Of a stretch of 64,000 nucleotides of DNA, positions 2,391-57,341 are shown one piece after another. The notes below the pieces were generated by a model. The model saw only the letters and a program-made list of their open reading frames with translations. It did no database searches and was not told the origin of the DNA. A program made the position numbers and the translations under genes. Source of the DNA: Selenomonas sp. AB3002 (GTDB lineage Bacteria; Bacillota; Negativicutes; Selenomonadales; Selenomonadaceae); NCBI RefSeq assembly GCF_000702545.1, contig NZ_JNIO01000002.1:248001-312000 (forward strand), written 5' to 3'. Within the stretch, counting starts at the first letter, position 1, and the number at the start of each line of letters is the position of its first letter.

Positions 2391-2392
2391 TA

Positions 2393-36631: not shown

Positions 36632-36656
36632 GAAGACCCAGGAAAGGGGCTCAGAC

Positions 36657-37742: not shown

Positions 37743-37745
37743 AAG

Positions 37746-37754
37746 TGATATACT
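37746..37754 (+). promoter_or_regulatory. Extended -10 before arsR-type gene
   Basis: TGATATACT (TG-n-TATACT) lies directly after the mupG stop and 25 bp before the regulator start. The -35 is weak. Confidence 0.5.
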
Positions 37755-37778
37755 ATAAAGAAAAACCTGGAGGAAAGA

Positions 37779-38156: not shown

Positions 38157-38205
38157 GATAAAATAAGAAATCTACCAGCACCATAAGAAGGAAAGGACGA
38201 TACCT

Positions 38206-39036
38206 ATGCACTTTCGTACCCTTCGTATCCTCTATGCCCTGCACAAAATCCATCAGCGACGCAAAAAACACAGGCGGCATCCCCACCTGAAAGCTCTCCT
38301 GATGCCTCTGGCCGCGGGGATAATCCTCACCGCCAGCCAGCTGACGGCAGCGGCCTCTCCCACCCTCCAGCAAGGCAGCCACGGACACGAAGTCATGGTG
38401 CTTCAGCAAAAATTAAACAGCATAGGCTACAAGATCAAGAGCCTGGACGGCGTCTACGGAGCAGAGACCGAGCGGGCCGTGGCCGAGTTCCAGCGGGACC
38501 AGAAGATCCGCATCACCGGCATCGTCAACAATGCCACCTGGCGGGCTCTGAAAAAGGCCAAGCCCCGCACCTGGGGGGTAGACATGGAGAAGCCCAAGGA
38601 CAAAGGCGAAGCCATCAGCTCCAAAGGCCCCCTGGCTCCCAACGGTCAGACCATCCTGCCCCAGAACAAGGTCAAACCTCTCATAGCCACAGCCAAATCC
38701 TATATCGGAGTGCCATACCAGTTCGGCGGCACCACTCCCAAAGCCTTTGACTGCTCCGGCTATCTCCAGTACATCTTCGGCAAGCAGGGCATTAACATCC
38801 CCCGCACTGCCGACGAGCAGTACAAGCTGGGGTTGCGCACCAAAACCTCCAAGGAACTCGTCCCCGGAGATCTGGTCTTCTTTGAAACCTACGAGAAAGG
38901 CGCCTCCCACTGCGGCCTGTACCTGGGCAGCGGCGAGTTCATCCATACCAGTTCCAGCAAAGGCGTGCGCATAGACAAACTCTCAGATGATTACTGGTCT
39001 CCAAGATTCCTGGGAGGGAAGCATATAGTTAAATAA
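38206..39036 (+). CDS. NlpC/P60 peptidoglycan endopeptidase with PG-binding domain
   Basis: The 276-residue exported hydrolase begins with a basic tail (HQRRKKHRRH) and a hydrophobic segment ending at TAAAS (~residue 50), a signal peptide or anchor. A PG_binding_1 domain follows (GSHGHEVMVLQQKLNSIGYK to ATWRALKK, ~57-116). The NlpC/P60 domain has the catalytic Cys in FDCSGYLQ (~residue 182) and His in GASHCGLYLG (~236), and VPYQFGGTTPKA is typical. It probably cuts D-Glu-diaminopimelate bonds in wall peptides. Terminator follows. Confidence 0.94.
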   Translation: MHFRTLRILYALHKIHQRRKKHRRHPHLKALLMPLAAGIILTASQLTAAASPTLQQGSHGHEVMVLQQKLNSIGYKIKSLDGVYGAETERAVAEFQRDQKIRITGIVNNATWRALKKAKPRTWGVDMEKPKDKGEAISSKGPLAPNGQTILPQNKVKPLIATAKSYIGVPYQFGGTTPKAFDCSGYLQYIFGKQGINIPRTADEQYKLGLRTKTSKELVPGDLVFFETYEKGASHCGLYLGSGEFIHTSSSKGVRIDKLSDDYWSPRFLGGKHIVK

Positions 39037-39085: not shown

Positions 39086-40765
39086 TTACCAAATCTTGCC
39101 TGCCATAAACCACAGGCGTCCCTTGGCCTTTTCATCCTCAGTCAGCATCTTGCTTCCACCGATGCGGCGGGCATAGTCCAGACGGGCAAACCAGTCCCCG
39201 GGAGCAGTGTAGCTAAGACCTACGCCCCAGCCCTGCAGGTGGATGGAACTGCCCACAGCCCCGTCGCGGGTCATATATAACTCCCCGCCATGGTTGTACT
39301 TCACAAAGCCCGTATCATAATAAGTGCTGAAAACAAGCCCCTTCACCGGGGTATAGAAACGCAGTTCAGCCGTGGCGAGGATACCTTCGTCACCGGAGCC
39401 CGTACCCTGTGGATAAGCCCGGATGGCATTGGCACCTCCCAGGTAAATCTCCTCGGAGCCGTCCAGATTCTTGCTGGCCACCTGCCCGGAAGCCTTCACC
39501 ATTAGATCTGCCATATTGCCCAGCCGCTTCACAGCAGTAGCATTAGCCTCCAGCTTGCTGTAGTTGCCCTTGGTGCCGGCCAGTTCAATCTGTTGCTCCC
39601 CATAGTCGGAGTCAGCCCCCAGCCAGCCCGTGCGGGCAGTGAGACCGTAGCCGAAGTACAGGCCTTCCACCCGGAGGAACCCGTCCACACCCACATGCAC
39701 GTTGGTGGAGTGCTTCTTGGTATTGAAGCCAAAGGCCTTGATCTCATCTTTCAGCTTGCGGAAATCAAGACCGTAGTTCACATTGAGCTGCTTGTCGTGC
39801 AGATGGTATATGGGACGATGCCCGAAGAGGCTGATGGTATCTGCCGTACCTTCGGCCCCGATGCTGCCCAGAGCCCCGCCCACCTGATAGTCCATGCGGC
39901 TGTAGCCCAGGCCCAGGGTGGTGCCGCCGTGGCCTATCAAAGCTTCATAGTTGGCATAGTAGTTGTGCAGGTGGTCATTGGAAATAAGGGTACCCACATT
40001 GATGCGCGCCCCGGTGCCTCCCACATCATATATGCTGTGCTGCAGACCATAGCGATAGCGGCCTGTATTCTTGCTGCCGTAGTTCTCCACATAGAGAATG
40101 GTATTGGTGCTCTTGCCCTTCTCAATCCGCACTGTCAGGTCACTGGTGCCGAACTCCGCTCCCGGGGACAGCACGCCCACGGCCTTGTTGCCGCTGGCAT
40201 CAGACAGGGAGAACAAGGTGGTTTCCAAATCCTCCGTGCGGATAATCTTGCCTTTTTCTTTAGTCAGGCCATTGAGGAAGCCCTGAATGACCCTTTCCTT
40301 CAGCTTGCTCTGGTTGTCGATCTTCACTTCCCCATAGCGGCCGGGGATGACTTTCAGCACCACCACGCCGTCGGTGCTGGTCTGGGGCGGCAGGTAAGCC
40401 GCCGCCGCAGGATAGCCATGCTGACGGCAGTAGCCCGTGATCTTCCTGATGGTCTCATTGAGCCCCGTGAGGGTCTGGTCATCCTTCATGCCCTCCTGGA
40501 GAATCTTCACCAGCGGTTCCTTCGCGATATGCAGTTCAGGTGCCTCCAGGCGGAAGTTCTCCACCTTGAAATGCACTTCCTCCTGCATCCCTTCCCCGGT
40601 AGGGGCATTATCATGCACCTCGGCCTCCGGCAGCGGCGCATGAGCCTCGATGTCCTGACCGGGCTGTGAAAGTGAGGGAGCCGCCAGGGCCGTGCCCTGC
40701 AAGGACCCCGCCATCAGGCAGGCCCCCACCGCCTGCATCATTCTTTTCTCTAAAAGCTTTTTCAT
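39086..40765 (-). CDS. Two-partner secretion outer-membrane transporter (TpsB)
   Basis: The 559-residue ShlB/FhaC/HecB-type pore exports a TpsA partner across the outer membrane. A signal peptide (KKLLEKRMM, hydrophobic core, cleavage near ALA-AP) starts at the ATG at 40765, with AAGGGG 8 nt upstream; a TTG two codons earlier is an alternative. A POTRA_2/ShlB-type domain lies at ~residues 50-140 (FRLEAPELHI, YCRQHGYPAAAAYLPPQ, VIPGRYGEV). The rest is a beta barrel with amphipathic strands and ends in an aromatic residue (AGKIW). It lies 128 bp after the giant adhesin gene. Its presence shows a diderm cell envelope. Confidence 0.93.
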   Translation of the reverse strand: MKKLLEKRMMQAVGACLMAGSLQGTALAAPSLSQPGQDIEAHAPLPEAEVHDNAPTGEGMQEEVHFKVENFRLEAPELHIAKEPLVKILQEGMKDDQTLTGLNETIRKITGYCRQHGYPAAAAYLPPQTSTDGVVVLKVIPGRYGEVKIDNQSKLKERVIQGFLNGLTKEKGKIIRTEDLETTLFSLSDASGNKAVGVLSPGAEFGTSDLTVRIEKGKSTNTILYVENYGSKNTGRYRYGLQHSIYDVGGTGARINVGTLISNDHLHNYYANYEALIGHGGTTLGLGYSRMDYQVGGALGSIGAEGTADTISLFGHRPIYHLHDKQLNVNYGLDFRKLKDEIKAFGFNTKKHSTNVHVGVDGFLRVEGLYFGYGLTARTGWLGADSDYGEQQIELAGTKGNYSKLEANATAVKRLGNMADLMVKASGQVASKNLDGSEEIYLGGANAIRAYPQGTGSGDEGILATAELRFYTPVKGLVFSTYYDTGFVKYNHGGELYMTRDGAVGSSIHLQGWGVGLSYTAPGDWFARLDYARRIGGSKMLTEDEKAKGRLWFMAGKIW

Positions 40766-40857
40766 CCCCAAAACCCCTTATACGGCCATTATTCCAGCAG
40801 TGTCAATTTTCCTCAATTTCCTCCTCATTTTATCACAATTCACCCCCAAAAGTCCAC

Positions 40858-40893: not shown

Positions 40894-43800
40894 TTATGCT
40901 ACATCGCTATAGGTAATAGCTGCCTTTCCTTCACGGCTTTCGTCTTCTTCACTGTTTTCCTTGTCCTTGTCCTCCTTTTCCTCCTTGTCCTTCTTATTCT
41001 CGTTATCCTCAAGAGGCACCAGGCTGTCATCACCGGTGATAGTCAGGTCACTGTCGCTGTCCTGTGTTTCCAGACTGATTCTGCCATTCCTTCCGTTGGA
41101 AGAAGAACTGCTGCCGGAGCCATCGCCTGTACCTTCATCAGCTTCGGAAAGTTCTGCCGTCAGGAGTTCTTTCCTCCGCCCGGAATTTAGCAAAGTGCCA
41201 TCTTCTGTTTCAATTCCGATAGTTCCCTCCTTGCTCCCGGCCTCTGCCACAAGCGCTCCATCTTCTGTCTCGATGCTTATAGAGCCTTCGCCATCAGCAG
41301 CACCCACGCTGAGGTAACCTTCTTCTGTGCTCTCCACATAAAGTTCCTTGCCCTTGTCCGTGTTGCTGAGGCTCATGCTGCCGTCACTTGCCACATCCTC
41401 ACCCAGGAGATTTACCACCTCAGCCATTTCAATAGCCACAGTACCGGAAGAACCGGTTGTCCCATTGACGGAGGAAACAGCCGTGGTATCTTCGCCATAC
41501 TGAATGGTAGCTGAAGCCCCATTGCCGGTGGCTGTGCTCTGATCCTTGGAAACATTCTTGTATACATTGCTGTCCGGGACAATAGGCTTTTCTACATAGC
41601 CGATATCCGCTAATACAGGCTCTGCCTCAGGCGCAGGAACCGGCGTCGGGGTCGGCGTCGGCGTCGGGGTTGGCGTCGGGGTCGGCGTCGGGGTCGGCGT
41701 CGGGGTTGGCGTCGGGGTTGGCGTCGGTTCCGGAGTTGGGGTCGGCGTATAGCCACCGCCACCACCAGAATAAGGATTCACCACGAAATTGCCCGGCTCC
41801 TGTTTCTTCAAAGTATAATTCTTGTCTAAGTTAGCCTCCTTATACAGATCCAAATAATGGTTATAGACCTGATTGCCGTTCTCATCTACCTTAAGGGTAC
41901 CATCTTCATTATAGGCCAGTTCCGTTCTGGGGATGCGATACCATCCGTAGACATCATGCTCACCTACGCTGTACTTGGTAACACTGGCCTCAGGCCCCCA
42001 ATAAATGTGTTCGGCATCATTGTAATACTCTGCCAGCGGCACCTGTTTGGTGGTAGTGCCGGTAGAAGTTGTACCATCTTCATTCTTGATGGTTTCCGTA
42101 ACGTTCACAGGCATGGTCTCGCCGTCCACAAAACCTGTCAATGTTCCGGTAAATGTCGGCATATCCTGGCCGGCCGTAATGGTAGCGCTGCTGCCATGAG
42201 CAGTGATAACGGCCCTGTTGATGATGCCTGTACCGTCAAATTCATCCTTGTCCAGCTCATAGTTGCCATTACCCAGGGCAAGGCTATTGTATACCACTTG
42301 ATGCTGGAAGGGAGCCGATGTCCTGTTGAAAGCGGCATCCTTGGGGGCAGCTTCTGCTATATCCTTATCAGATATGCTTTCATCCCTCTTAGCTGCCTCC
42401 AATGCTTTCTTCGTAGGAGCACCATAGGTAGCCTTGCCCACAGTCAGCCCCAGGAAATCCTGAATGTTGCCATCGCCAGCCATCTTCCTGTTAATCATAT
42501 CCTGATTGACAAACGCCGCTCCAGCCTCATCAATAGTAAACTCATTGACTGTGAGATTATTATTATTGGCCACCCTGGTTCCATCGTAAGTCTTGGAAGA
42601 ATCTATGGATTTCACAGAAATGGTATACGGCGTGATCTCACCGGCATTATCCTGAAGCACGCCAGTGCGGGTCTCGCCGTTCCCGGAAGTGTAGCCGTTA
42701 GTGCCATCGGCGGTGAAATTGCCTGCCAGATCGTAGTTGGAATTGTTCCAGCTGAGCTTGTAGAAGGTAGCCTTGTCCTTCTGCACCTTGCCGTTCTTCC
42801 TGCTGACATTCTCATCATCATAGGTGGGAGTATCCGTCAGCGTCACATCAAAGCTTTCCGTTTCGCCGCTGCCCGGGTCTAGGCTCAAGGTCATATTGTT
42901 GGCATTGCCAAAGGACCTGCTGACCTTCGCACCATCGGCTGCAGCCGTCAGGTTGGAAGCTGACGCATAAGACACCTTATTGCCATCTTCATCCTCATAT
43001 TCGCCCTTGACCAGCTTGTCCTGATCATACTGCTTGGTAGGACTCTTCCTGATGGCGACGGTGATGTTCTTGGGATCTATCCTGCCTCCTTCCTTCTCAG
43101 TGATCTCTATGCCCTCATCAGTGACAGCATAGTTGATGCTGCCGTCAGAGCTGCTGCCGTCTTTGATGGCCAGGGCATAGTTGCCTGCATCATTGCCATC
43201 GGCAGTCTTGCTGTCCTCCAGCTCAAACTTCTTGAAGGTCACATCCTTATTGATGACATTGCCGCTCTTATCGCGGGCCACATCCTTGGTATCGTACTCG
43301 CCTCTGATGGCAGAGTAATTCAGGCCCACCCCGGCATCAATGATGCCGCTCTCATCCTCGTCATTCCTGCCCTCCAGCACGAACCTGCCAGACAGATCCG
43401 CATCCTTGGACAAGACCTTCCTGCCATCATATTCCTTGCTGAGCAGCTCGCCTCCTTTGTCCTCCACATAGACCTTGCGCTGGCGGATATCGCCATAGCC
43501 CTGATAGTCGGACGTCTGGCCACCGTTGCCGTCAGCAAAGATATAATTCTTGTTCGCCATGTCCTTGGCATCTGCCCAGGCCATGGCGTAGTTGATTACC
43601 TTGCCGCCCTCGGCCGTGGCCTCAGGACTGATACTGGCATTCTTGTCCTCATAGGCTGCTTTCACATTGACCGTAGAAACAAGCTCGCCATTTGCCCTGT
43701 CCAGATTGATGACATCCAGATCTTCCTCATCGATGGCAAAATACGGAGTCCCGTCCTCTGCCACCAACTTGGCGCTGTCATTGCCATCATAAATCTTCTC

Positions 43801-46800
43801 TTGCAGGGCGCTTCTGGCCTTGCCGGAAATGACCCTCTGGGTAATCGTGCCTGCCTTGTCGTCACGGGTAAAGTACCTGTGATAGGACTCGGAAGTATAG
43901 CCATCAGCCAGCTTGAAATTCTTCAGGGATTCATCTGACAGGCCATCAATCTTGTAGTACACAGGCAGATTCTCACCCACATCCTTTATGGGACCCGTGG
44001 GGGTATCATCATAGGCATAGGCATATCCATAACCAGCATCTACCAGATTGTAGCCAATGGGAACCTTTACTTCCTCGTCCCCTGCTTTATACACGCCTAA
44101 AATCTTGAAGCCATCGCTTGCATCCTTGCCCACCAGTTTATTGGTGCCATCATATTCCTTGACCACCTCGCCAGACCACTGTGTCTCAGTGCCGGTAATA
44201 AGGCGCCTGGTGATTTTGCCCTTTTCCTGGTCAGCCGTGAAGGTCAGGGTATCCGTGTCAGCATCGTAGCTACCATTGGTTTCGGCAATCCTGTAGTTGG
44301 TGCCCAAGGTGCCCTCTTCTATGCCGATCAGCGAGCCATGCACATTACTATACTGCACCGCTTTGAATGTTACATCACTGTCATCATAGTTTACCGTGCC
44401 ACCCTTATAAGCCACATTCTCATCTTCGGTGAACACGCCGTCATTGTAATTGCCATAGCTGCCTTTAATGAGCGTATCGCCATTGATGGCAACCTGAAGA
44501 TTCTCTCCCTCAATTGTGCCGCTAACCTCAAAAGTCGGGTACTTATCATCATCAGCGCTGGTATCAGTTTTCACCAGATTGACATCTGACTTGGCATCAT
44601 AGGCTTTCTCTGCATAACCAACCTTAAGGTTGATTTCCTTCTGATTGATAGTGCCATCGCCCACCAGCGTATCATTGGGCTTAGCACTGATATTTCCATC
44701 AGCGTCTTTGGTATACAGGTTGTAATTGCCATTGACACCGCTAATAACATAGTTAATAGCATTCTTGCCAGCCTGAGCCTTGCCCTTGTCATCAACTTCT
44801 ACATTCTTATTCTGATAAGTCGGCGTAACAGTAATGTTATCTTCCCCATCCAACAGGCCCTTGAGGTTCACAAAGGAGTTGGCCGCAGCCTGATCTATGG
44901 CATCACCTTCATTATTATTCTTTGCCGCGCCAATCACTGTGATAGTGCCATCATAGACCTTAGTGGGATTGAGGTTGTCAACCAGAGAAGCATAGACGTT
45001 CTTGGGAGTAATGGAATTCTTGTTGGTTTCCTTAGTAAAAGTAAAGCTGTAGTCATCATTCCAATTGCCAAGGCCTTCAGCCACATCGTAATTGCTGATA
45101 ACGTCGCTGTTTACTCTCAAAGTATAGGTAATTGCCTTGTCCCCAATGCTAACGCCGGCATTATCGAACTTAGTATTTGCCTCTTCAACGGAGTAATCAT
45201 CTGCTTCAATGGCATAAGTTCCCAAGGTAACGCCATTGATATTAGTTATCGCAGCTTTCTGCTCAACCTGATTAGGATCTTCATAATCACTTGCCGTGTG
45301 GTTATAAATCAGAGAAGCAGTTCCATCATAAACCTTGCTGAACGGGTCTATATCGGCATCGACAGCAGCAATGCCCCGCTTGGTGATAAGACCCTTCTGC
45401 GTATCAGCTGCAAAGACCCAATCCCCATCTGTAAGCACAGCCTCGCCGTCAACCAGCTTGTAGTTCTTCAAATCAGTATCTTTGTTGCCTTCAGACAACG
45501 TTACGCCGCTGTACTTGACAGCCTTGTAAGCTGCATTTCTGTCAGCATCAAGAGCAACATTGGCATCCTCATTGAAAGTCCCATCGACAATATTGCCGTA
45601 AACACCGCTGCTGACACTGGTATTGATGCTCTCTCCCTTTACCCCGGTTTCTACCCTAAGATTAGGCAGACTATCACCGGTTTCGAGATTCTCATTCGTC
45701 AGCTTCACATTGGCATTCTGGTCATAAGTCTTCTGGGCCAAATCAGACTCCAGCTTGATCTCACGCGGAGTGATGGTGCCGGTCCCCGTCAGGGTTGCCG
45801 TGTTCTTATCATTGTGATTGTCATCAACATCATGAAGCTTATAATTGTCATCGATACCATCTACCGTATAAGTTACCTTATGCGCTTTAGTCTGAACTTC
45901 GCCATTATCATCGACTACTACATTCTTGTCGTTATATACGGCATCTACCTTATACTTGTCCTTGTCATCACCAACCAGGCCCTTTACCTTCACATAGGAC
46001 TTGGCCTTTGCCTCGTCAACAACTTTTCCACCATCAACTGTCACATTCAGAACATCAGTCGTACCATCATATTCCTTGGTAGGATTGGCAGCCAAACCAT
46101 CATCATTCAGTGAAGCATAGATGTTCTTTGCCGTAATAGTGTTGCCCTTAGTGGTCTCGGTCAGGATGAAATTGCCATCACTATCATATTCACCATTCTT
46201 AATGGAATCCATCTCGTAGTTTCTGGCGAAATCTACGCCCATGGTCATCTTATAAGTGATGTCCTTATTCTCTCCTGCCTTGGCAGTATCATAATCTGCA
46301 GCAACACTATAAACAGCATCCACATTTTTCTGCTGGTCAGTAGTCAAGGTCACGCCATGGACATAATCCGAAGCGTTTGACTTATCCTTATTCTGAGTAT
46401 CGTCATACTCCAAATCTTCAGCCGTATGGTCATAAGTAAGGGAAGTCTCTCCATCATAGACCTTGTCTACAATTTCATCAATGACCGTCCCAATCTCATT
46501 AACCTTACGCTTGGTAATAAGACCTTTCTCCTTGGCAGCCAGGAACGTCAGTTCATCAGTAGCGCTGTTGTAAAGGTGAGCATCCTTGTAGTTGACCAAT
46601 TTGTAATTGGACATATCCGTCTGGTCATTACCTGCAGACAAAGATTTACCCACATTGCTATACTGAACAGCCTTATAGGTTGCCTTATTGTTGCCATCAA
46701 GGGCAACATTGGCATCAGCCACAAATCCATCAGCATCCGTGTAGGTGCCATATACACCAGTAATGATGCTGGAATCAAGCTTAATTTCCTCTCCTTCTAC

Positions 46801-49800
46801 CCCGGTAGGAAGGCTGAACGTAGGAACTTTATCGCCATCTTCCGTTATCTCAAACTTCACATTGGCATTTCCATCATAGGTCTTTTGCGCAAGGTCAGCG
46901 GACAAAGTCAAGCCACGCGGAGTGATAGTACCTCCACCCATAAGGGAATTACTTTCGCTTACTTCACCATCGCTATCCTTTGTGTAAAGTTTATAGTTCG
47001 GGCTGACATCCTTAATAGTGTACTTAATAGAACGAGCCTTCTTAACATTCTTGTTATTGTAGGCCGCACTAACTGTATAACTGTCATTGTCCACAAACCC
47101 TGGGAGATCTATATAGGACTCTTTGACCTTGTTCTCGTCAACGACAGTCTCTCCATCCATAGCCTTGCCAAAGACTTCTTTGGTGCCGTCATACTCCTTA
47201 GTAGGATCGGCCTTTTCACCTTCATCAGTCAGGGAAGCATAGATATTCTTGGGCGTAATAGTATTGTTATTGGTTTCTTCCTCAAAGTTGAAGTCACCAT
47301 CTTTGTAGAAACCGCCCTCCAGAGTACCCAGATTGTAATTCCTGGCAAAGTCCTTGGCTATGGACAATTTATAGGTAACTTTCTTATCCGTGTCTACATC
47401 CGGCGTCTCGTAGTTGCCTACAACACTGTAAGAATCACGATTAACATCTACATCACCCAAGCCATCAGTAGTCAGAGTAATGCTATTGACGAAATCTTTA
47501 GCTTTGCCCGTGATTGCCTGGTCAGTGTCATAGTGCAAATCTTTAACAGTGTGATCGTAGTCAAGGGGAGTATCTCCATCGTAGACTTTGGTGGCTGCCT
47601 TAAAGTCCGGGGTAATCGCAGTAACATTACGCTTGGTGATAAGCCCCATCTTCTTATCAGCCGCAAAGACCAATTTATCCTCTACGATATCATAAGAATG
47701 ATGTTCTTCATCGTCAGCAAAGGTGTAGTTGGTCAGTTTTGTACCATTATCAGACGTCAGATGTCCCCTTACAGAGCTATACCTTACAGCCTTGTAAGTT
47801 GCATCATTATTCTTATCCAGCGCCACATTCGGATCTGAAGTAAACTTTTTTTCATCTGTTGCATAAGTACCATACTCACCTGTAACAGCACCAAACTGCA
47901 CAGACTCCCCTTTTTCCGTCAGCACATTGTTCAGAGTGAACGTAGGCAGCACGTCACCATCTTCCAGATTATAATTTTTATTATCCATTTTGACGGTAGA
48001 CGTCTTGTCATAGGTTTTCTGGGCAATAGTAGCTGTCAACGTAAGCGGACGCGGCGTTATAGTGCCTTTCCCTACCAAAGTCACCGTATTGTCATCATTA
48101 GTGGTTCCAAATAAACCATCAGCTTTAATTTTATAATTGTTGCCAACACCGCCAACTGTGTAGTCAATTTTGTTAGCTTCCTCAACAGGCAGTGCCTTAA
48201 TGTTTACTTCGACATCCTTGCTTTGATAGGCAGCCGCATTAACGGAATATTTATCACTATCCTCGTCTCTCAGACCTGTAATATTCACATACTTCTTAGC
48301 CGTATCAGCAGTAACAGTTTCTTCACCATCTTTGGCAATACCGAAGACCGTCGTTTCGCCATCGTACACCTTGGTAGGATTAGCCTCTTCGCCAGTTTCA
48401 CTCAAAGAAGCATAGACATTCTTTGGCGTAATGGTATTTCCTTCCTTCACCTGGGTAAAGGTATAGTTGCCATTACTTTCAGGTTTAATCTTATCCCCGG
48501 TCAATTCAAGGTTCTTTATGACGCTGCTGTCTACTGTAAATTCATAGGTAACATCCTTGTTATTTTCCCCTGCATTCGCATTATCAAAGTGTGTATTCTC
48601 ATTATTAACGGTATAACCATAATCAAGGGTCACCAAGTCACCCAGTTTAATGTTATTGACCTTGTCCCCTGCACTGGCTTTCTTGCGCTGGCTTTCATCA
48701 TAGCTCAAATCATTAGTATAATCATAAGTAAGGGAAGTATTACCATCATAGACCTTCGTAACAATATCAATATCCGCTTCAATCGTATCTACTGCCAGTT
48801 TGGTAATCTTGCCCTTTTCCTTATCCTTGGTAAAGGTAAGAGTATCACTGTCGGCATCATAAAGATGGTCACTACTATTAGCCAGTGTATAGTTAGTGAG
48901 TTTAGTGCTGCCATTACCAGCTTTAAAAGAGCCTGTTGCATTGCTGTACTGAACAGCTTTATAGGTTACCTCACTGGCATCGAATTTCTCAGCATTATCA
49001 ACAAAGGCCACATTGGGGTCAACCGTAAAGGTGCCATTAGCATAAGTACCATAGTTACCCTCAATGGCATTATCGCCAGTGGTAGCAATAGTGATACTGT
49101 CGGTGCCCACCAGCCCCTTCAGGGTAAGGGTAGGAACAGAGGTCACACCTGTGCCGGTGGTCAAATCCACATCACTGTGGGTATCATAAACCTTCTCTGC
49201 CAAGGTAGCATCCAAAGTAAGCGCCTTAGGCTCAATGGTCCCCTTACCATAGAATTCGATTTCCTTATCGGTTTCATTCACCGTAGCTGTGTCGTCTTTG
49301 GTCCTCAGGTTATAGTTCTTACTGAGGCCGTTCACCACATAGTTGACCACATTCTCCTTGGCCGCAACTTTCCCATCAGCCACAGCTACGTCCTTGCTTG
49401 CATAAGTAGGCGTAACAGTATAAGCTGTATCTACAGTCTCCATGCCGCTGATGGTCACATAGGAATTGGCTGCCGTCTGGTCCACCGTGCTGCCGTTGCT
49501 CTTGGCCAGATTCAGGAGATTGGTAGTGCCGTCATAACTCTTGGTGGGATTAGCCGCCTGTCCCTTGTCGTTCAGGGACGCATAAACATTCTTGGCCGTG
49601 ATGGCGTTGTTATTGGTATCCTTGGTAAAGACAAAATTGCCATCGCTGTCGTAATTGCCCAAACCATCTTCCAGTTCAAAGTTCCCAAGCGCATCCTTCT
49701 CCAAAACCAAAGTATAGGTAATGGCCTTGCTGCTGCCTACATTGGCATCAGCATACTTGGTATTGCCCTCGTCCACATGGAAGCCAGTAGTGATAGTCAA

Positions 49801-52800
49801 TTTTCCCAGAGTAAGGCTCTTGACAGAGGTAATCTTGTCCACCGTTGCCTTCTGGCTATCATCATAACCATTAGACGCATTGTGGACATAGGTAAGGGAA
49901 GTACCGCCATCATAAACCTTGGATACCTTGTCAATGACTGCAGTAATCTCATCAATCGTCCGCTTGTCAATAGTTCCCTTGCCATAGGCAGTGACTGTGT
50001 AGCCATCATCAGTCTTGGTAAATTCTAAAGCTTTACTGCCGTCACTGTTCACCAGACGGTAGTTCTTGAGGTCCGAGCTGGTGGAAACCAGGTCATACTT
50101 CACCTCATGCTCGCCAACATCCTCGGCGCCCAGCTTATCTGTGGCTTGGAAGGCACTGGTAGCTTGTGTAGTAAGGCTAATGGTATCCCCAGTTGCCACA
50201 CCCGTAAGGCTGGCATCAGTATTATCTTTGCCGGCAGTCAAAGTTACAGTGTGAGTAGTGCCCCCACTGTCCTTATAATCCATGACATAGGCATTGCCGT
50301 CATAGATTTTTTCAATGTCACTGAAGGAGACTTTCAAATCTTTCTGCTTGATATTGCCGCCATACTTAGCATCTCCAACAGTATAGGTATTCCCATCATC
50401 CTTGGCGCTTGCAAACTTGCCATCATAGTTAGTGTCCTTAAAGACTTCATAGTCAGTGTCAGCATAAGTGCCGGAAAGCTTTACTGTGTACTTGACCTTC
50501 TTGTTGCCGCTCACTGATTCCTGTACACCATCAGTATAGATATTGGCATCCTTGGCAGCATAACCATCCCGAAGATCCCCGGCATATTCTGCCACGGAGA
50601 CATTGGTCACACCATCATTACCTGTCAAACCAGTGACTTCTGTCTTAGCCTCAAACTTGACTACTTTATCCCCCGTCAGCTTATTGCCGTTGTCATCCAC
50701 CACATCCGTGGTACCGTCATAGGTCTTGGTAAGCCCGGTCACACCTGAAGTTTTAAGCACACGGGCAGTAATCAGGTTCTTATTTTCCTTGTCAATCAGT
50801 GCCAAACCAGTAGAGGATTTGGTATAGCCAGAACCAGAATCTGCCAGCACATAGTCGCCATTATCGGCATCTAATTCCACTGCGTAAACAATCTTGCTGA
50901 CGTCCTTCACATGGGCGCTGTCATAAAGAGTTTTGTTGGTATCTACACTATAAGCATCATCCGCCAGATCAACACTTACTTTTTTGCCGCCTACGCCTTC
51001 GCCTTTGATGGTAACAGTGCCAAGTTTTGACTTCACTTCATCACTGGAAATTTTTTTATTCTCAATAGTTATGTCACCATTATCAGCATAAGTTGCAGTC
51101 ATCTGATAGCCGCCCACAACGTTTTTAGTACCGTCGTAGACCTTGTTAACTTCACCCGTGCCACTAGTGGTAATAGTATCTATGGTCAAGGGGTTGATAG
51201 TCCCTTTGCCATACTGAGTATCATCCATGCCATCAGTAGTGTAATTGTGATTGCTGCTGGTCAGACTCTGGACGCCAGTATACTGCACCTGGCGGCTCTT
51301 GCCAGTGGCGCTGCCGCTGTCGGCATGGGCATGTTCATCAGCCTTAAAGGCAGTGCTGCTGCTTGTGGTCCAGCCCGGAGTACCATAGGTGCCCTTAATT
51401 TTTTTGCTGGCCTCACTGCCCGCGGAAATCACACCGCCAGTAGTGCCCAGCACCGCATCATAGGTATCATCACCCAGCAGGCCACTTTCGTTCAGAGTAA
51501 GTCCATCTGAATCATCAATAGTCACACCTGCAATAGTAATCTGATTGCTGGTCTGGGTAACACCATTTACCTCGCCTACCGTTGCCGTACCATCATATTT
51601 CTTGGACACATCGCCAAACTTAATGACAGTAATCTTGCGGGGATTGATGGTTCCCGTTGCCTCAAGCTCCACCTCATTGCTGTCCTTGCCATTCAAGGTG
51701 TAGTTTGCCGCATTATCTCCCGTCAAAGATACAGTGTACTTGATTTTCTTGGCAGCTGCATTTTTATTGTCATCCACATAAACATCTGCCGCATTGGTAG
51801 TCGTACCGTTCCCAACAGCAGCTGCAGTGGTGTACTCAGCACTAATTGAGAAGGCAGTCCCATCATTGCGGGTCTTGCCATAATCATCCACTACAAGTTT
51901 ATGGTCAGTATCACCAGCATAGCCCACGTAGCCCTTGGTAGTAGTGGTGCCGCTAGCCCCAGTCCCCTTAAAATCCAGATAGCCTTTATTGCTCCCATCC
52001 ACCACGGCTGCCTTGGCATCATAGGTCTTGTCAATGCCAGAATCAGTCAGCATAGCCACAGAAATAGCCCGCTTCTCAATCTCGCCTTCACGATAGACGG
52101 ACACAGTTCCGTTGGTTATCGCCTCGCCGTTTAGGGTATAGTTCTTAAGGACATCTGCATCACCTGCAGTTGCCAGAGTATACTTTATGTATTTGGCATC
52201 GCTAACAGTCTTTGCTTCCTTAGGCGTACCAGTATTGCTGTCGTAGAATTTAGGCGAATTGGTGGTAGTGTCCAAGGTAAAATTAAAGCTGCCCTTGTCA
52301 TCCTTAAGGATTCCTGTGACCTTAGTCTGAGCGAGTGCTTCCTCTTCAGTTGCCACCGCATCAGACTCAAAGCTCACCTGAGTCGCATCCGTATAGGCAG
52401 AGGTATAGTCATAGGTTTTCTTGTTATCTACTTCCTTGCCGTCTTTGTCCAAAAAGGCAATATTGTCCAACGTCACATTACGCTTGGCAATGGTGCCGGT
52501 ACCTGTAAGGACATTATCGGTCAGATCATTTCCGCTCTTATCCTGGAATTTATAGTTCTTAATCTTGGTGGAATCGCCGCTGAATTCCAAGTTATAAACC
52601 GCTTTGTAAGCATTTGCCGTATCATTGGCCTGAGCTATCTTCTTGGCCGCCGTCCCATCGGTGGAATAGTAGGCACTATTTACAGCCACTTCGACCTTTT
52701 TAAGGTCATCAGTAATAATCCCCCTGCCTTTATCATCGCTGGCATTGTATTTTTCTTCGGTAATGTTGCCAGTTAGATACTTATGCTTTTCAGGATTATC

Positions 52801-55368
52801 CTTCTCTGCATCCGCTGGAGCTACGGCGTCAATGACTTGCGAAGTTCCATCATAAATCTTGTCAATACCGGTGGCCTGGGTCAGCGACACCTGCACAGGC
52901 CTCTGTGTGATGTCGCCGATAACTTTTATAGCCTTAGTATCAAATGGCGTAGTATCAAACGTATAGTTAGTATAATCCGTTGCATGATCAGTGTCAGAAG
53001 AGGCCTTCAGCATTGAATCAGGATCATTCGGGAAAATCAGATTTACTGTATCCTTGGTTACAACATTCTCACCAGAAGCATAAGTTGCCGTCAAACCAGA
53101 AGTATCCAGGGTAACAGCGTCCGTCTTAACTACAGTACCATCGCTTTTGGTAACCTTAACCAAGCCGGTTTCCACTAAGGTGCCAGCCTTATAAGTTATG
53201 CCATTTACTGTGCCACCATTATTATAAATATCTGCCACATCGACAGCATTATTAGACAGCGTCAAGGCATTACTAAAAGCTTTGCTTGCGTCGTCAGTAC
53301 CATCATAAACCTTGGTGATATGAACATCACCGCTAACAGGCAACAAGTTGCGTGCTACCACTTTGATGGAACTGTCCGCTAGGTCATAGCCATCCTGTCC
53401 GCCTAAAGAATAGAAGAAATTAACGCCAGACTCACCTTCAGCAGTTACATCACGAACTTTCGTATCATTGTAGCCAATCTTGCTGCTGTCAAGCCCCTGT
53501 GCACCACTTGAAGACAGTACGCTCCCGTTTTTCTTGGCTACTCCCATATAGTAGCCATTATAAGTAAGATCCTTGGCAGCAGAACCTGGAATCACTGCTC
53601 TGGGAGTGGTATCGTTTTCTTCTGCATAAAGACCGACATTGTAATTTAATGCTACTGTACCATGACTGTTGGCCTTCAGGAAACTGCGGAGTAAAGGCAG
53701 ACTATGCCCTTCATAGATACGCCAAGTATCATTTGCTGTTTCTGTACCAGAAAAAAGTCCTGGATAATCACTTTGACTTGTAGATGTTGCATTATCAATG
53801 CAGTTAGTACCACCGGACGGACCAATAGTATGACTACTGGTATCCTCTGAACCCGAGCTATTATAAAATTTCCCCGCATTATATGAATTAGTAATTTTTG
53901 ATGCTGTTGCTTCTCCACCATACAAACCATAATATTTTATGTTGCTATCATCTGTACCATACTTCATATCACCTATATTGTAAGAATTATTTAACTTTAA
54001 ACCTTTTTCAACAACCTGACCGACCAAACCACTTCCATCACCTATAGTTGCCTCATTATAGGCGTTTGAAATACTAGTTGTTCCTGCGGACCACCCGACT
54101 AAGCCTCCAGCAGCTCCCTCGACCGTAAGACCACTCACTGTGCCTGCATTTGCAACTACCGAAACCTCACCAAATGAGTCTAATGTACCAGATACCGAAT
54201 TAGCAACATTTATAAAAGTTGTATTATTTGCATAACCTGCAATCCCCCCAGCACCATATTGTGACTTAGGATTATCTTCATCAAGAGCTGCAGTAATAGA
54301 TACATCAACCAACTTGACATTTTCTATTCTTGCACCATCAGTACAGCCAAACAGCCCCGCATATTGTACATAATCATCATATTGTATGCTAATATTTTTT
54401 ATACTAAAAAAATTACCATCAAACTTTCCTTTAAAAGCATCAGACTTATCCTTGCCTATTGGTTTGAAATTTGACTTTGGAATTTTAACCCCCCATGACG
54501 TAGTATATTCTACTGGTAATTCTATGTTATCAGCAAGCATATAATTACCAGATAAATTATTATTAATATTTTTTAGTTCATCTTCATTATTAACCAACAT
54601 ATAATCGACAATTTTAGTATCTCCATATAAGAAAGATGCTTTATTAGCTTTACCTGCATTTTTATCTTTATAATCAGCCTCGCCTGGATCTGCAGTCAAA
54701 TATCCCACATGCACATATCCATCAGAACTGCTCTTAAGGGTGACCTTTTTCAAAACTTCGCCATCATCGGCAGAAACAATATCAGCAGTGTTAAGAAAAC
54801 GGATATTAGTGCCTTCAACATAGACAGAATTAGCCGTTATTTTTCCCATGTTAACAACTTCAGCCTGAACGGTTGAAGGGCTCAAAACACTGCTGCTTGT
54901 GCCATCCCACTTATCTTTACCATCAATTATATTTTTAAGGTTTGACAAATCTTGAGTAGAAACGTATAAATTCCCCACATCAATATTGGCAGACTCCCCC
55001 ATTATAACGCCTTGGGGATTTACCAGATAAACATCATTCCCCCCCCTCATAGCGCCATTTATGTATGAAGTACCATTCCCTGTAACCACATTTAGATAAT
55101 TATGCGCACCGTTAGCAACAGACTTCTCCCCACCGTCAAAAGTCACACTTTCCCCACTGCCAACAGAAAAATCTGCCCAGTTTATGACATTATTGTCAAT
55201 CGTAGACGTGATAGTCGTATCTGTTCCTGTAGTAATAGTAGCTCCACCAGTCACATCTTTATCCAGCACTGGTGCCGCATGAACCGTAGGCACAAAACTG
55301 AACATGCCGGCAACCAAAGCAAGACTGACCTGCAGTGCCAGCTTATCTTTATTCGTCAACGTGTTCAT
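40894..55368 (-). CDS. Giant two-partner secretion adhesin (TpsA) with YDG/MBG repeats
   Basis: This 4,824-residue exported protein has a signal peptide (residues ~1-32, ending VHA-AP), a TPS domain (~35-200) with VINWADFSVG and LVNPQGVIMG, and GLUG-type repeats (~290-520: GLFG, GGIAGYA, GGLVGW). From ~686 to ~4300 come about 28 units, each opening with a K-x-Y-D-G-type motif as in YDG/MBG adhesin domains. Five three-unit super-repeats occupy ~1800-3740. A (TP)n spacer (~4540-4576) and an acidic Glu/Lys/Asp-rich tail finish it. The start at 55368 has GGAGTG 7 nt upstream. It looks more AT-rich than its neighbours. Partner: the TpsB gene downstream. Confidence 0.93.
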   Translation of the reverse strand: MNTLTNKDKLALQVSLALVAGMFSFVPTVHAAPVLDKDVTGGATITTGTDTTITSTIDNNVINWADFSVGSGESVTFDGGEKSVANGAHNYLNVVTGNGTSYINGAMRGGNDVYLVNPQGVIMGESANIDVGNLYVSTQDLSNLKNIIDGKDKWDGTSSSVLSPSTVQAEVVNMGKITANSVYVEGTNIRFLNTADIVSADDGEVLKKVTLKSSSDGYVHVGYLTADPGEADYKDKNAGKANKASFLYGDTKIVDYMLVNNEDELKNINNNLSGNYMLADNIELPVEYTTSWGVKIPKSNFKPIGKDKSDAFKGKFDGNFFSIKNISIQYDDYVQYAGLFGCTDGARIENVKLVDVSITAALDEDNPKSQYGAGGIAGYANNTTFINVANSVSGTLDSFGEVSVVANAGTVSGLTVEGAAGGLVGWSAGTTSISNAYNEATIGDGSGLVGQVVEKGLKLNNSYNIGDMKYGTDDSNIKYYGLYGGEATASKITNSYNAGKFYNSSGSEDTSSHTIGPSGGTNCIDNATSTSQSDYPGLFSGTETANDTWRIYEGHSLPLLRSFLKANSHGTVALNYNVGLYAEENDTTPRAVIPGSAAKDLTYNGYYMGVAKKNGSVLSSSGAQGLDSSKIGYNDTKVRDVTAEGESGVNFFYSLGGQDGYDLADSSIKVVARNLLPVSGDVHITKVYDGTDDASKAFSNALTLSNNAVDVADIYNNGGTVNGITYKAGTLVETGLVKVTKSDGTVVKTDAVTLDTSGLTATYASGENVVTKDTVNLIFPNDPDSMLKASSDTDHATDYTNYTFDTTPFDTKAIKVIGDITQRPVQVSLTQATGIDKIYDGTSQVIDAVAPADAEKDNPEKHKYLTGNITEEKYNASDDKGRGIITDDLKKVEVAVNSAYYSTDGTAAKKIAQANDTANAYKAVYNLEFSGDSTKIKNYKFQDKSGNDLTDNVLTGTGTIAKRNVTLDNIAFLDKDGKEVDNKKTYDYTSAYTDATQVSFESDAVATEEEALAQTKVTGILKDDKGSFNFTLDTTTNSPKFYDSNTGTPKEAKTVSDAKYIKYTLATAGDADVLKNYTLNGEAITNGTVSVYREGEIEKRAISVAMLTDSGIDKTYDAKAAVVDGSNKGYLDFKGTGASGTTTTKGYVGYAGDTDHKLVVDDYGKTRNDGTAFSISAEYTTAAAVGNGTTTNAADVYVDDNKNAAAKKIKYTVSLTGDNAANYTLNGKDSNEVELEATGTINPRKITVIKFGDVSKKYDGTATVGEVNGVTQTSNQITIAGVTIDDSDGLTLNESGLLGDDTYDAVLGTTGGVISAGSEASKKIKGTYGTPGWTTSSSTAFKADEHAHADSGSATGKSRQVQYTGVQSLTSSNHNYTTDGMDDTQYGKGTINPLTIDTITTSGTGEVNKVYDGTKNVVGGYQMTATYADNGDITIENKKISSDEVKSKLGTVTIKGEGVGGKKVSVDLADDAYSVDTNKTLYDSAHVKDVSKIVYAVELDADNGDYVLADSGSGYTKSSTGLALIDKENKNLITARVLKTSGVTGLTKTYDGTTDVVDDNGNKLTGDKVVKFEAKTEVTGLTGNDGVTNVSVAEYAGDLRDGYAAKDANIYTDGVQESVSGNKKVKYTVKLSGTYADTDYEVFKDTNYDGKFASAKDDGNTYTVGDAKYGGNIKQKDLKVSFSDIEKIYDGNAYVMDYKDSGGTTHTVTLTAGKDNTDASLTGVATGDTISLTTQATSAFQATDKLGAEDVGEHEVKYDLVSTSSDLKNYRLVNSDGSKALEFTKTDDGYTVTAYGKGTIDKRTIDEITAVIDKVSKVYDGGTSLTYVHNASNGYDDSQKATVDKITSVKSLTLGKLTITTGFHVDEGNTKYADANVGSSKAITYTLVLEKDALGNFELEDGLGNYDSDGNFVFTKDTNNNAITAKNVYASLNDKGQAANPTKSYDGTTNLLNLAKSNGSTVDQTAANSYVTISGMETVDTAYTVTPTYASKDVAVADGKVAAKENVVNYVVNGLSKNYNLRTKDDTATVNETDKEIEFYGKGTIEPKALTLDATLAEKVYDTHSDVDLTTGTGVTSVPTLTLKGLVGTDSITIATTGDNAIEGNYGTYANGTFTVDPNVAFVDNAEKFDASEVTYKAVQYSNATGSFKAGNGSTKLTNYTLANSSDHLYDADSDTLTFTKDKEKGKITKLAVDTIEADIDIVTKVYDGNTSLTYDYTNDLSYDESQRKKASAGDKVNNIKLGDLVTLDYGYTVNNENTHFDNANAGENNKDVTYEFTVDSSVIKNLELTGDKIKPESNGNYTFTQVKEGNTITPKNVYASLSETGEEANPTKVYDGETTVFGIAKDGEETVTADTAKKYVNITGLRDEDSDKYSVNAAAYQSKDVEVNIKALPVEEANKIDYTVGGVGNNYKIKADGLFGTTNDDNTVTLVGKGTITPRPLTLTATIAQKTYDKTSTVKMDNKNYNLEDGDVLPTFTLNNVLTEKGESVQFGAVTGEYGTYATDEKKFTSDPNVALDKNNDATYKAVRYSSVRGHLTSDNGTKLTNYTFADDEEHHSYDIVEDKLVFAADKKMGLITKRNVTAITPDFKAATKVYDGDTPLDYDHTVKDLHYDTDQAITGKAKDFVNSITLTTDGLGDVDVNRDSYSVVGNYETPDVDTDKKVTYKLSIAKDFARNYNLGTLEGGFYKDGDFNFEEETNNNTITPKNIYASLTDEGEKADPTKEYDGTKEVFGKAMDGETVVDENKVKESYIDLPGFVDNDSYTVSAAYNNKNVKKARSIKYTIKDVSPNYKLYTKDSDGEVSESNSLMGGGTITPRGLTLSADLAQKTYDGNANVKFEITEDGDKVPTFSLPTGVEGEEIKLDSSIITGVYGTYTDADGFVADANVALDGNNKATYKAVQYSNVGKSLSAGNDQTDMSNYKLVNYKDAHLYNSATDELTFLAAKEKGLITKRKVNEIGTVIDEIVDKVYDGETSLTYDHTAEDLEYDDTQNKDKSNASDYVHGVTLTTDQQKNVDAVYSVAADYDTAKAGENKDITYKMTMGVDFARNYEMDSIKNGEYDSDGNFILTETTKGNTITAKNIYASLNDDGLAANPTKEYDGTTDVLNVTVDGGKVVDEAKAKSYVKVKGLVGDDKDKYKVDAVYNDKNVVVDDNGEVQTKAHKVTYTVDGIDDNYKLHDVDDNHNDKNTATLTGTGTITPREIKLESDLAQKTYDQNANVKLTNENLETGDSLPNLRVETGVKGESINTSVSSGVYGNIVDGTFNEDANVALDADRNAAYKAVKYSGVTLSEGNKDTDLKNYKLVDGEAVLTDGDWVFAADTQKGLITKRGIAAVDADIDPFSKVYDGTASLIYNHTASDYEDPNQVEQKAAITNINGVTLGTYAIEADDYSVEEANTKFDNAGVSIGDKAITYTLRVNSDVISNYDVAEGLGNWNDDYSFTFTKETNKNSITPKNVYASLVDNLNPTKVYDGTITVIGAAKNNNEGDAIDQAAANSFVNLKGLLDGEDNITVTPTYQNKNVEVDDKGKAQAGKNAINYVISGVNGNYNLYTKDADGNISAKPNDTLVGDGTINQKEINLKVGYAEKAYDAKSDVNLVKTDTSADDDKYPTFEVSGTIEGENLQVAINGDTLIKGSYGNYNDGVFTEDENVAYKGGTVNYDDSDVTFKAVQYSNVHGSLIGIEEGTLGTNYRIAETNGSYDADTDTLTFTADQEKGKITRRLITGTETQWSGEVVKEYDGTNKLVGKDASDGFKILGVYKAGDEEVKVPIGYNLVDAGYGYAYAYDDTPTGPIKDVGENLPVYYKIDGLSDESLKNFKLADGYTSESYHRYFTRDDKAGTITQRVISGKARSALQEKIYDGNDSAKLVAEDGTPYFAIDEEDLDVINLDRANGELVSTVNVKAAYEDKNASISPEATAEGGKVINYAMAWADAKDMANKNYIFADGNGGQTSDYQGYGDIRQRKVYVEDKGGELLSKEYDGRKVLSKDADLSGRFVLEGRNDEDESGIIDAGVGLNYSAIRGEYDTKDVARDKSGNVINKDVTFKKFELEDSKTADGNDAGNYALAIKDGSSSDGSINYAVTDEGIEITEKEGGRIDPKNITVAIRKSPTKQYDQDKLVKGEYEDEDGNKVSYASASNLTAAADGAKVSRSFGNANNMTLSLDPGSGETESFDVTLTDTPTYDDENVSRKNGKVQKDKATFYKLSWNNSNYDLAGNFTADGTNGYTSGNGETRTGVLQDNAGEITPYTISVKSIDSSKTYDGTRVANNNNLTVNEFTIDEAGAAFVNQDMINRKMAGDGNIQDFLGLTVGKATYGAPTKKALEAAKRDESISDKDIAEAAPKDAAFNRTSAPFQHQVVYNSLALGNGNYELDKDEFDGTGIINRAVITAHGSSATITAGQDMPTFTGTLTGFVDGETMPVNVTETIKNEDGTTSTGTTTKQVPLAEYYNDAEHIYWGPEASVTKYSVGEHDVYGWYRIPRTELAYNEDGTLKVDENGNQVYNHYLDLYKEANLDKNYTLKKQEPGNFVVNPYSGGGGGYTPTPTPEPTPTPTPTPTPTPTPTPTPTPTPTPTPTPVPAPEAEPVLADIGYVEKPIVPDSNVYKNVSKDQSTATGNGASATIQYGEDTTAVSSVNGTTGSSGTVAIEMAEVVNLLGEDVASDGSMSLSNTDKGKELYVESTEEGYLSVGAADGEGSISIETEDGALVAEAGSKEGTIGIETEDGTLLNSGRRKELLTAELSEADEGTGDGSGSSSSSNGRNGRISLETQDSDSDLTITGDDSLVPLEDNENKKDKEEKEDKDKENSEEDESREGKAAITYSDVA
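41636..41750 (-). repeat. Hexanucleotide repeat coding for (Thr-Pro)n
   Basis: Tandem GGCGTC/GGGGTC/GGGGTT units encode an alternating Thr-Pro run near the adhesin C-terminus. Units are 6 bp, so copy changes stay in frame and only alter spacer length. Slight unit variation (GTC/GTT) should slow slippage. Confidence 0.85.
44200..50030 (-). repeat. Five tandem ~1.15-kb super-repeats in the adhesin
   Basis: Motif order recurs as three unit types: K-V-Y-D-G-x-T/S-L-x-Y, then T-K-x-Y-D-G-T-x-x-V/L, then Q/E-K-x-Y-D-x-x-x-x-V. First-unit motifs fall near 49905, 48745, 47572, 46449 and 45327, a period of 1,122-1,173 bp. Linking phrases recur too, such as NVYASLxxxG before the second unit and KGxIT(K/P)R between units. 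Copies differ at many residues, so this is an old amplification rather than a recent one. Confidence 0.85.
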
Positions 55369-55415: not shown

Positions 55416-55443
55416 GAAAGAGGCACCAAAAGGTGCCCCTCTC
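55416..55443 (-). terminator. Hairpin after flagellin gene
   Basis: GAGGGGCACC-TTTT-GGTGCCTC on the minus strand followed by TTTC, ~20 bp after the flagellin stop. The T-run is short, so read-through into the adhesin gene is possible. Confidence 0.6.
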
Positions 55444-55462: not shown

Positions 55463-56851
55463 TCATTGTAACAAACTAAGCACTGAACTGCTGTTCTGAT
55501 TCGACTGCGCCAACATCGCTTGCACCGCCTGAGTCAAGATACTGTCCCTAGCATAGGCTGTCTGCTCTTTAGCCATATCCGCATCGCGAATGACTGATTC
55601 AGCCGCTTGAGTATTCTCGCTATTCATTACTATGTTGGCAGACGTATATTCCAAACGGCTAAGTTCTGCTCCTACCCCCGTCTGCTGATTCAACACTTTC
55701 TGCAAAGCGTTGTCCAAAACATTTATAGCCACATTGGCATTCGTCTGAGTTGAAACACTCAAAGTCGCCATCCCGTCACTATACGAACGAAGTCCCAATG
55801 CAATTGCCCGAACATCAGCAAACCCTGCGCGCAACGACTGATTAGCCTGTGTTCCAATCTGGAAGACCATTGCGTTATCCTCTGAGGAATTTTCTGCACT
55901 AATGCTTTCTTCAAAGAAATCAAATACCTTATTGGCATTGTCTCTAATTTCCCCTCCAGCATCAGTGATTTTAAAAGTTATTCCCGCAATCTGACCTGCC
56001 AATCCTGGCTGACTAGCTTTCAGTGTAATAGCATTACTGCCATCAGCCGTATAAACTTCTTCACCAGACTTGTCTGTACCTATATAATTGCTGGTGCTGT
56101 TTAATGTTATCACACCACCCAACTTATCTACCAATTCCGTTAAAGTGTATGGCCTTGTGAAATAATAATACTTAGGCCCCCTTTCAGGATGTAACGGATG
56201 ATAGTTAGGATTTCTCTTACTATCTTCTTTCTCAAGCGGGCTCACTTCCACAGTATGCGTTTCACCATTTTGAACCCAGGAAATAGCAACTGTATCAGTA
56301 GTTTGCAAACCGAGATTGTTGCCATCCTTGTTGGTCAAGTCAAGCACACTAGTATCGCCAGTGGTATCATCGGCAAACCTATAATTGGAAAGGTGCGTAT
56401 ACGTGCCCCCTTCCACCACACTGTAATTATGACTGCCATCCAGCATGGTGATACCATTGTAGCTCACCAAAGCATTATCATCAATCTGCTTGATATACTC
56501 ATCAAAAACCTTCTGAATATTAGCACGGTCAGCATCAGTATTATGATCGTTAGCCGAATCTATAGCCTTCTCCTTCATAGTGCGAAGAATATTGATAGTG
56601 CTGTCTAGAGCCCCAGCAGCCGTATTCAGAATGCTAATACCATTCTGCGCATTCTGATCATCCTGATCTAAGGACTTGACCTGAACCCTCATACGCTCAG
56701 AGATTGCATACTCGGATGCCCCATCAGCTGCACTGGTAATCTTCTCACCGCTGGACAGCCTCTTCAAATCCTTATTCATGGCCTCGTTGTTCTTGCTGAG
56801 GTTCTTCAGTGCATTAACGCTGTCCATGTTGTTCTTGACTATGAGTGCCAT
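55463..56851 (-). CDS. fliC: Flagellin
   Basis: The 462-residue filament protein has conserved ends and a variable centre. The N-terminal D0/D1 region (residues 1-~150) has MALIVKNNMDSVNAL, LSSGEKITSAADGASEYAISERMR (given as LSSGEKITSAADG and ASEYAISERMR) and QNGISILNTAAGAL. The C-terminal D1/D0 (~350-462) has LRAGFADVRA, VLNQQTGVGAELSRLEYT and ends QAMLAQSNQNSSSVLSLLQ. A ~200-residue D2/D3-like surface insert lies between. GAGGAGG precedes the start, and a sigma-28-type promoter lies ~110 bp upstream. Unusually, the adhesin gene follows only 94 bp downstream. Confidence 0.97.
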   Translation of the reverse strand: MALIVKNNMDSVNALKNLSKNNEAMNKDLKRLSSGEKITSAADGASEYAISERMRVQVKSLDQDDQNAQNGISILNTAAGALDSTINILRTMKEKAIDSANDHNTDADRANIQKVFDEYIKQIDDNALVSYNGITMLDGSHNYSVVEGGTYTHLSNYRFADDTTGDTSVLDLTNKDGNNLGLQTTDTVAISWVQNGETHTVEVSPLEKEDSKRNPNYHPLHPERGPKYYYFTRPYTLTELVDKLGGVITLNSTSNYIGTDKSGEEVYTADGSNAITLKASQPGLAGQIAGITFKITDAGGEIRDNANKVFDFFEESISAENSSEDNAMVFQIGTQANQSLRAGFADVRAIALGLRSYSDGMATLSVSTQTNANVAINVLDNALQKVLNQQTGVGAELSRLEYTSANIVMNSENTQAAESVIRDADMAKEQTAYARDSILTQAVQAMLAQSNQNSSSVLSLLQ

Positions 56852-56961: not shown

Positions 56962-56988
56962 ATATCGAATGAACCCTAGATTTTCTTA
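56962..56988 (-). promoter_or_regulatory. Sigma-28 (FliA/SigD) promoter of flagellin
   Basis: On the minus strand TAAG (56988-56985), 15 bp, then TTCGATAT (56969-56962) fits the flagellar consensus TAAA-N15-GCCGATAA. The 5' leader of ~100 nt holds no gene. Confidence 0.75.
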
Positions 56989-57047
56989 AGCACAAAATAA
57001 GGGTTTCCAGAAAAAATTCATAAAAAATTTTCCCATAAAATGGTTTA

Positions 57048-57081: not shown

Positions 57082-57267
57082 TCACGCCAGTATGTCTACA
57101 TTTGCGCCCAGATTCGGATCTGAGCTGAGTTCGCCCAAGAGCTGCTCCGTGCCGCTCTCGGCCGTCTCCATCGCTTTTTTCAGCACCGCGGTGCCCAGGT
57201 CCTGAGCTGCCTGTTGTTGATGCATGCTCACGGACATGGCCGCAATGCTCATGTAATTGTCACCCAT
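57082..57267 (-). CDS. YjfB-family putative motility protein
   Basis: This 61-residue protein fits the small YjfB_motility family: MSIAAMSVSMHQQQAAQDLGTAVLKKAMETAE (given as MSIAAMSVSMHQQQ and AQDLGTAVLKKAMETAE) covers residues 6-37, the conserved helix. The family is tied to flagellar gene sets, but its function is not established. AGGAGGTG lies 5 nt before the start at 57267. It lies directly upstream of flagellin on the same strand, which supports a motility link. Confidence 0.8.
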   Translation of the reverse strand: MGDNYMSIAAMSVSMHQQQAAQDLGTAVLKKAMETAESGTEQLLGELSSDPNLGANVDILA

Positions 57268-57341
57268 AGGCGCACCTCCTAGTAAAACACTTCCGTGTTA
57301 CCCTTATTATCGATGTTTTGCGGGGAAAACTTAAGTGTTTT

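Follow-up and report, generated by a model that had tools for sequence, protein, structure and literature searches.

The window, a stretch of 64,000 nucleotides from the rumen bacterium Selenomonas sp. AB3002, encodes a real and well-conserved system: a giant two-partner-secretion (TPS) adhesin, TpsA, which possesses an inherited three-domain register and is genetically tied to a special flagellin. We consider it fairly probable that TpsA is secreted by the TPS route, forms a giant adhesin fibre and is part of the motility programme; we infer its secretion, fibre shape, adhesion, co-transcription and functional flagellar link.

The giant exoprotein and its transporter

The tpsA gene and its partner comprise the following features:

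40894–55368, minus strand: tpsA, giant TPS exoprotein of 4,824 residues, a single intact ORF
55276–55368, minus strand: signal peptide MNTLTNKDKLALQVSLALVAGMFSFVPTVHA, conserved across genera
54919–55239, minus strand: TPS secretion domain, residues 44–150 (Pfam PF05860, 60.4 bits; TIGR01901, 56.1 bits)
54043–54117, minus strand: GLUG-like motif (Pfam score 19.6, just under the cut-off of 20.5)
41629–41748, minus strand: Pro-Thr-rich stalk of 40 residues
40897–41628, minus strand: acidic C-terminal tail, no domain found
39086–40771, minus strand: tpsB, outer-membrane transporter with POTRA_2 and a ShlB/FhaC barrel, directly downstream of tpsA

The start at 55368 fits the conserved signal peptide, an alternative in-frame ATG being located five codons upstream, at 55383. 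The 4,824-residue TPS ORF described in the earlier note is confirmed: its frame is intact, and it encodes a signal peptide followed by a TPS domain and 28 YDG-like units. The signal peptide, the N-terminal TPS domain and the adjoining cognate TpsB are the features that define two-partner secretion, and the predicted export of TpsA by this route is well supported at the sequence level. Among relatives, TpsB adjoins the giant tpsA at 12 of 18 loci, as counted within the examined stretch. A PDB sequence search with the TPS domain reports EtpA as the best solved match (8cpk, E=9.4e-11), yet HxuA and HMW1 follow closely; the TPS similarity, being also common to these two proteins, is not evidence for flagellin binding.

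Pfam analysis of the entire TpsA protein did not return any family, and the scan was repeated on pieces. Compared with the YDG (PF18657)/MBG (PF17883) repeat adhesins, the window units match the YDG model, one segment being above the cut-off (26.1 vs 25), but most units fall below it (17–22 in the other segments), and MBG gave no significant match in the pieces. The HMM scan for YDG, MBG and GLUG that had been proposed earlier is thus positive for YDG in one segment, and negative for GLUG (below its cut-off) and for MBG. Among the units of the family, 39 out of 63 match the YDG model at E≤1, the best at 5.5e-15.

The last 421 residues, formed by the Pro-Thr-rich stalk and the acidic tail, are conserved in the genus, and the Pfam scan detected no domain in them. 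This segment bears on whether TpsA could be a CdiA-type toxin stick serving contact-dependent inhibition, a reading that its TPS architecture and giant size would accommodate. However, the conserved segment is not a variable toxin tip, neither a C-terminal toxin module nor a neighbouring immunity gene is present, and no small gene lies between tpsA and tpsB; we reject this reading as very improbable. The giant TpsA ends in a motif conserved in the genus, xAxITYxDVA (window 40897–40930), while the giants of other genera end with IGIETxGxGVNL-like sequences, and these conserved motifs are possibly an anchor or a processing signal. Downstream of tpsB, on the opposite strand, window positions 34585–39036 likely form a cell-wall sugar recycling cluster, with genes for a SIS-domain protein, PTS EIIC, MupG, an ArsR-type regulator and NlpC/P60. 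The same genome contains a second TPS gene (C2:742986–749201) encoding 2,071 residues and devoid of a YDG array; its TpsB is located upstream, and a same-strand flagellin follows about 5 kb downstream.

The three-unit register of the YDG-like array

The 28 YDG-like motif units cover residues 676–4384 of TpsA and are arranged as follows:

49951–53343, minus strand: YDG-like units 1–8, three-unit phase absent
48787–49950, minus strand: A-B-C block 1, residues 1807–2194 (388 residues)
47620–48786, minus strand: A-B-C block 2, residues 2195–2583 (389 residues)
46495–47619, minus strand: A-B-C block 3, residues 2584–2958 (375 residues)
45367–46494, minus strand: A-B-C block 4, residues 2959–3334 (376 residues)
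44191–45366, minus strand: A-B-C block 5, residues 3335–3726 (392 residues)
42217–44190, minus strand: YDG-like units 24–28, three-unit phase absent

Units 9–23 (residues 1807–3726) form five A-B-C blocks in strict order, of 1.13–1.18 kb each, in agreement with the earlier note, which had counted about 28 units and placed three-type blocks at residues ~1800–3740. All-against-all global alignment reports scores of 156–271 for A-A, 155–233 for B-B and 159–294 for C-C pairs, vs 19–83 for cross-type pairs within the array. None of 500 permutations of the unit order reaches the value observed for period 3, and periods 2, 4 and 5 gave no signal in the same test. The unit scores cluster by type, and an equal similarity between all units with no three-unit phase, which had been set as the refuting outcome, is therefore not what the array displays. 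The claim that the blocks were duplicated after the three unit types had diverged is supported. A segmentation-free offset spectrum of the window protein reports the three-unit offset alone, with none in residue shuffles. A scan of the genome contigs with the block sequence found nothing, while an alignment of the TPS domain did recover relatives, and a PDB sequence search with the block profile did not return any match.

Repeats are prone to assembly error, and the five blocks could have been an assembly or duplication artefact. However, the block-to-block DNA identity of 52–60% is far under the level that confuses assemblers, the contig measures 958 kb, and the same architecture is found in many independent assemblies; we reject the artefact as hardly conceivable. 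The low identity also supports the claim that the array is old. As for its upkeep by selection, the measurable parts are under purifying selection, with dN/dS values vs congeners of about 0.2–0.4 for the TPS domain and about 0.1 for TpsB. Judged from sequence, the TpsA cargo evolves far faster than the TpsB transporter. Identity to congeners amounts to 87–90% for TpsB, vs 45–67% for the TpsA N-terminal domain.

The block tree pairs the outermost blocks 1 and 5, and blocks 3 and 4, with block 2 next to the latter (support 91/92, 90/92, 92/95), and within every unit type blocks 1 and 5 rank first or close to first among the pairs. The kinship of the outermost pair points to a separate origin or homogenisation of the middle blocks. 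The grouping of the window blocks together vs those of the sister species has a support of 41/11 and occurs in 44% of bootstraps, and the support of the unit trees is too weak for dating the amplification.

The segmentation-free method identifies self-similarity in 27 of 46 giants, the window protein included, and the three-unit offset is dominant in 24 of these 27 informative giants. The A, B and C models were trained on the window alone and then run on the other giants: adjacent unit calls follow the A-B, B-C, C-A order 44 times and the reverse 8 times, and calls two apart fit the cycle in 40 cases with 12 against, these counts omitting same-class neighbours (mostly weak A-A calls) and including calls inside one protein, which are not independent. 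A one-off amplification, private to the window tpsA, is rejected, as the A-B-C cyclic order and the period of about 375 residues occur in other Selenomonadaceae genera. The triplet is therefore an ancestral register of the family, in which blocks are gained and lost, and the window gene appears to be its best-preserved or most repeated case, not its origin. The simplest account of its upkeep is that, after the types diverged, unequal exchange pairs only like with like, and a three-domain repeat of the fibre may be its structural cause. To our knowledge, no such three-type register has been described for the YDG/MBG family. The self-similarity spectra of the two Succiniclasticum giants include short offsets, which are not dominant in the flagellin-linked giants.

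Structure prediction of a single unit with 63 aligned relatives yields a compact β domain (pLDDT 88.7) made up of short mixed strands and helices, and not a β-helix. The prediction of a three-unit block, suggested in the earlier note, did produce a model, but of only moderate confidence (pLDDT 60.8); TpsA would presumably adopt the shape of a very long fibre. Foldseek analysis of the block and unit models reports no match at E≤0.001, the best, weak matches being β-sandwich, Ig-like or S-layer.

The linked flagellin class

The strongest feature of the locus, a flagellin gene linked to tpsA, is not mentioned in the earlier note. Upstream of tpsA, the window exhibits the following features:

55416–55443, minus strand: intrinsic-terminator-like hairpin with a 12-bp stem, between the flagellin and tpsA
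55463–56851, minus strand: companion flagellin of 462 residues, of the tpsA-linked flagellin class, 94 bases upstream of tpsA
56963–56989, minus strand: sigma-28-like promoter TTAAG-N17-CGATA, upstream of the flagellin
57082–57267, minus strand: yjfB-like putative motility protein of about 61 residues (Pfam PF14070)
57308–57334, minus strand: second sigma-28-like promoter, upstream of yjfB

Selenomonadaceae commonly carry giant YDG TpsA proteins, about 2,500–4,500 residues in length; among the named carriers are Selenomonas ruminantium, S. bovis, S. noxia, S. flueggei, Centipeda periodontii, Mitsuokella and Schwartzia. A flagellin is located at most 2 kb upstream on the same strand for 39 of 42 named giants, i.e., 39 of the 40 from Selenomonadaceae; at the 40th, it lies 5.4 kb upstream, with order and strand kept despite intervening genes, and the remaining two belong to Succiniclasticum and are devoid of a flagellin neighbour. 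None of 16 short TPS genes has a flagellin so placed within 2 kb (Fisher p=1.2e-11 vs the giants, a descriptive value, since the loci share ancestry and the linkage may have arisen once, so that independence is overstated). In a separate set of relatives, whose genomes partly overlap those of the named giants, a flagellin is the nearest recognised upstream neighbour of 17 out of 18 YDG giants, at 15 to about 1,700 bases; for the 18th, other genes intervene and the flagellin, likewise on the tpsA strand, lies about 5 kb upstream. Several flagellated Selenomonadaceae genera have no giant tpsA. Succiniclasticum is non-motile, and its giants have no flagellin neighbour; dependence on flagellin is therefore not absolute. 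The linkage points to a joint action of the fibre and the swimming apparatus. No report of it was found in a literature search within whose reach most subscription journals did not fall.

Such a neighbourhood could also be a relic of vertical inheritance without any functional link, as a single origin would fit the linked flagellins and all carrier genera belong to one family. However, the genes outside flagellin-tpsA-tpsB are replaced between genera, while the pair stays together at 39 of the 40 named Selenomonadaceae loci, and the sole locus with intervening genes retains order and strand, so that we hold a mere relic to be improbable. The other genes of the window accompany this trio within the genus alone, the flanks differing between genera; yjfB, for instance, is not conserved beside the linked flagellin at other loci.

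The window genome reports 11 flagellin-like matches, and in most carriers the best match over the full length is the linked flagellin. On trees that also contain the remaining flagellins of these genomes, the linked class requires 2–3 label changes vs 15.7–16.2 in shuffles, and its constraint to one clade is not rejected (p-AU 0.545); therefore, one flagellin lineage probably stayed with the giant tpsA. One relative's flagellin groups weakly with the linked class yet has no adjoining TPS gene. The tpsA-linked flagellins display longer branches than the common flagellins from the same genomes.

The motif TTAAG-N15-18-CGATA, which we take to resemble the sigma-28 (SigD/FliA) promoter, returns two matches in the 64 kb window, where a mean of 0.18 is expected, and none of 100 shuffles contains two. 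A sigma-28-like site precedes the linked flagellin at 17 of 18 and 38 of 42 loci in the two sets. Directly before the window tpsA, no such site is present and the terminator-like hairpin intervenes; no sigma-70-like site was found in this gap, and read-through is therefore the likeliest route of tpsA expression here. Elsewhere, the flagellin-tpsA gaps of several genera contain sigma-70-like promoters, as judged by eye, and most gaps a terminator-like hairpin; tight co-transcription is therefore not general.

These sigma-70-like promoters of its own, together with the Succiniclasticum giants that have no flagellin neighbour, favour the view that TpsA is an ordinary cell-surface adhesin, merely co-regulated with motility in the manner of Vibrio cholerae FrhA, and does not touch the flagellum. 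Flagellar-regulated giant adhesins using another secretion route are known (PMC10865825). FrhA resembles TpsA in being a giant adhesin made of repeats and linked to flagellar regulation, but it is an RTX adhesin with other domains, not a TPS protein, and no flagellin gene neighbour is described for it in the consulted passages (PMC10865825). We rate co-regulation alone as a strong contender, a little under an even chance; it leaves unexplained why a specific, faster-evolving flagellin class adjoins tpsA, and not another motility gene.

Proposed function and related systems

In the reading that we favour, a fibre belonging to the motility programme, Sec would export TpsA, the adjacent TpsB pore would then accept its TPS domain, and the about 28 YDG-like β domains would fold outside the cell to form a long flexible fibre, whose adhesive role would be that of its family. 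With the A-B-C register ancestral to the family, and copy-number change possible only between same-type units once the types had diverged, the fibre would grow or shrink in steps of about 375 residues. The tpsA gene would belong to the motility programme by being passed on jointly with a dedicated flagellin, whose gene bears a sigma-28-type promoter, and the window tpsA, devoid of a recognisable promoter of its own, would probably be transcribed by read-through past the terminator-like hairpin. Gene order, the dedicated flagellin and the promoter context point to a flagellar link, and the fibre would probably act on or with flagella, e.g., in surface contact or in attachment to host or particles.

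A precedent is found in EtpA of enterotoxigenic E. coli, a TPS exoprotein whose N-terminal region attaches to flagellin at the tips of flagella (PMC10284417). Both are TPS exoproteins with a cognate TpsB and an association with flagellin, but EtpA is a β-helical protein of 1,767 residues, whereas the window TpsA comprises 4,824 residues and YDG domains, and its association with flagellin is one of gene linkage. An EtpA-like physical docking of TpsA on the companion flagellin is plausible. Similarly, TpsA shares with the FHA/HMW-type TPS adhesins the TPS domain, TpsB and a very large size, but differs from them by its long YDG array in place of a β-helix and by its flagellin neighbour. More tentatively, and on balance doubtfully, the two genes might encode a dedicated two-part organelle, in which a specialised flagellin in the filament or at its tip docks the giant TPS fibre; flagella would thereby be adhesive throughout Selenomonadaceae, and fibre length would be tuned in three-domain steps.

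The linkage points to a specific candidate flagellin partner for the giant TpsA, and the three-domain register offers a rare instance of a giant surface protein whose length evolution shows its step size directly. A conserved, family-wide flagellin-tpsA module in diderm Firmicutes of the rumen and the mouth would make flagellum-coupled TPS adhesins look like a strategy of long standing, and not a pathogen's curiosity.
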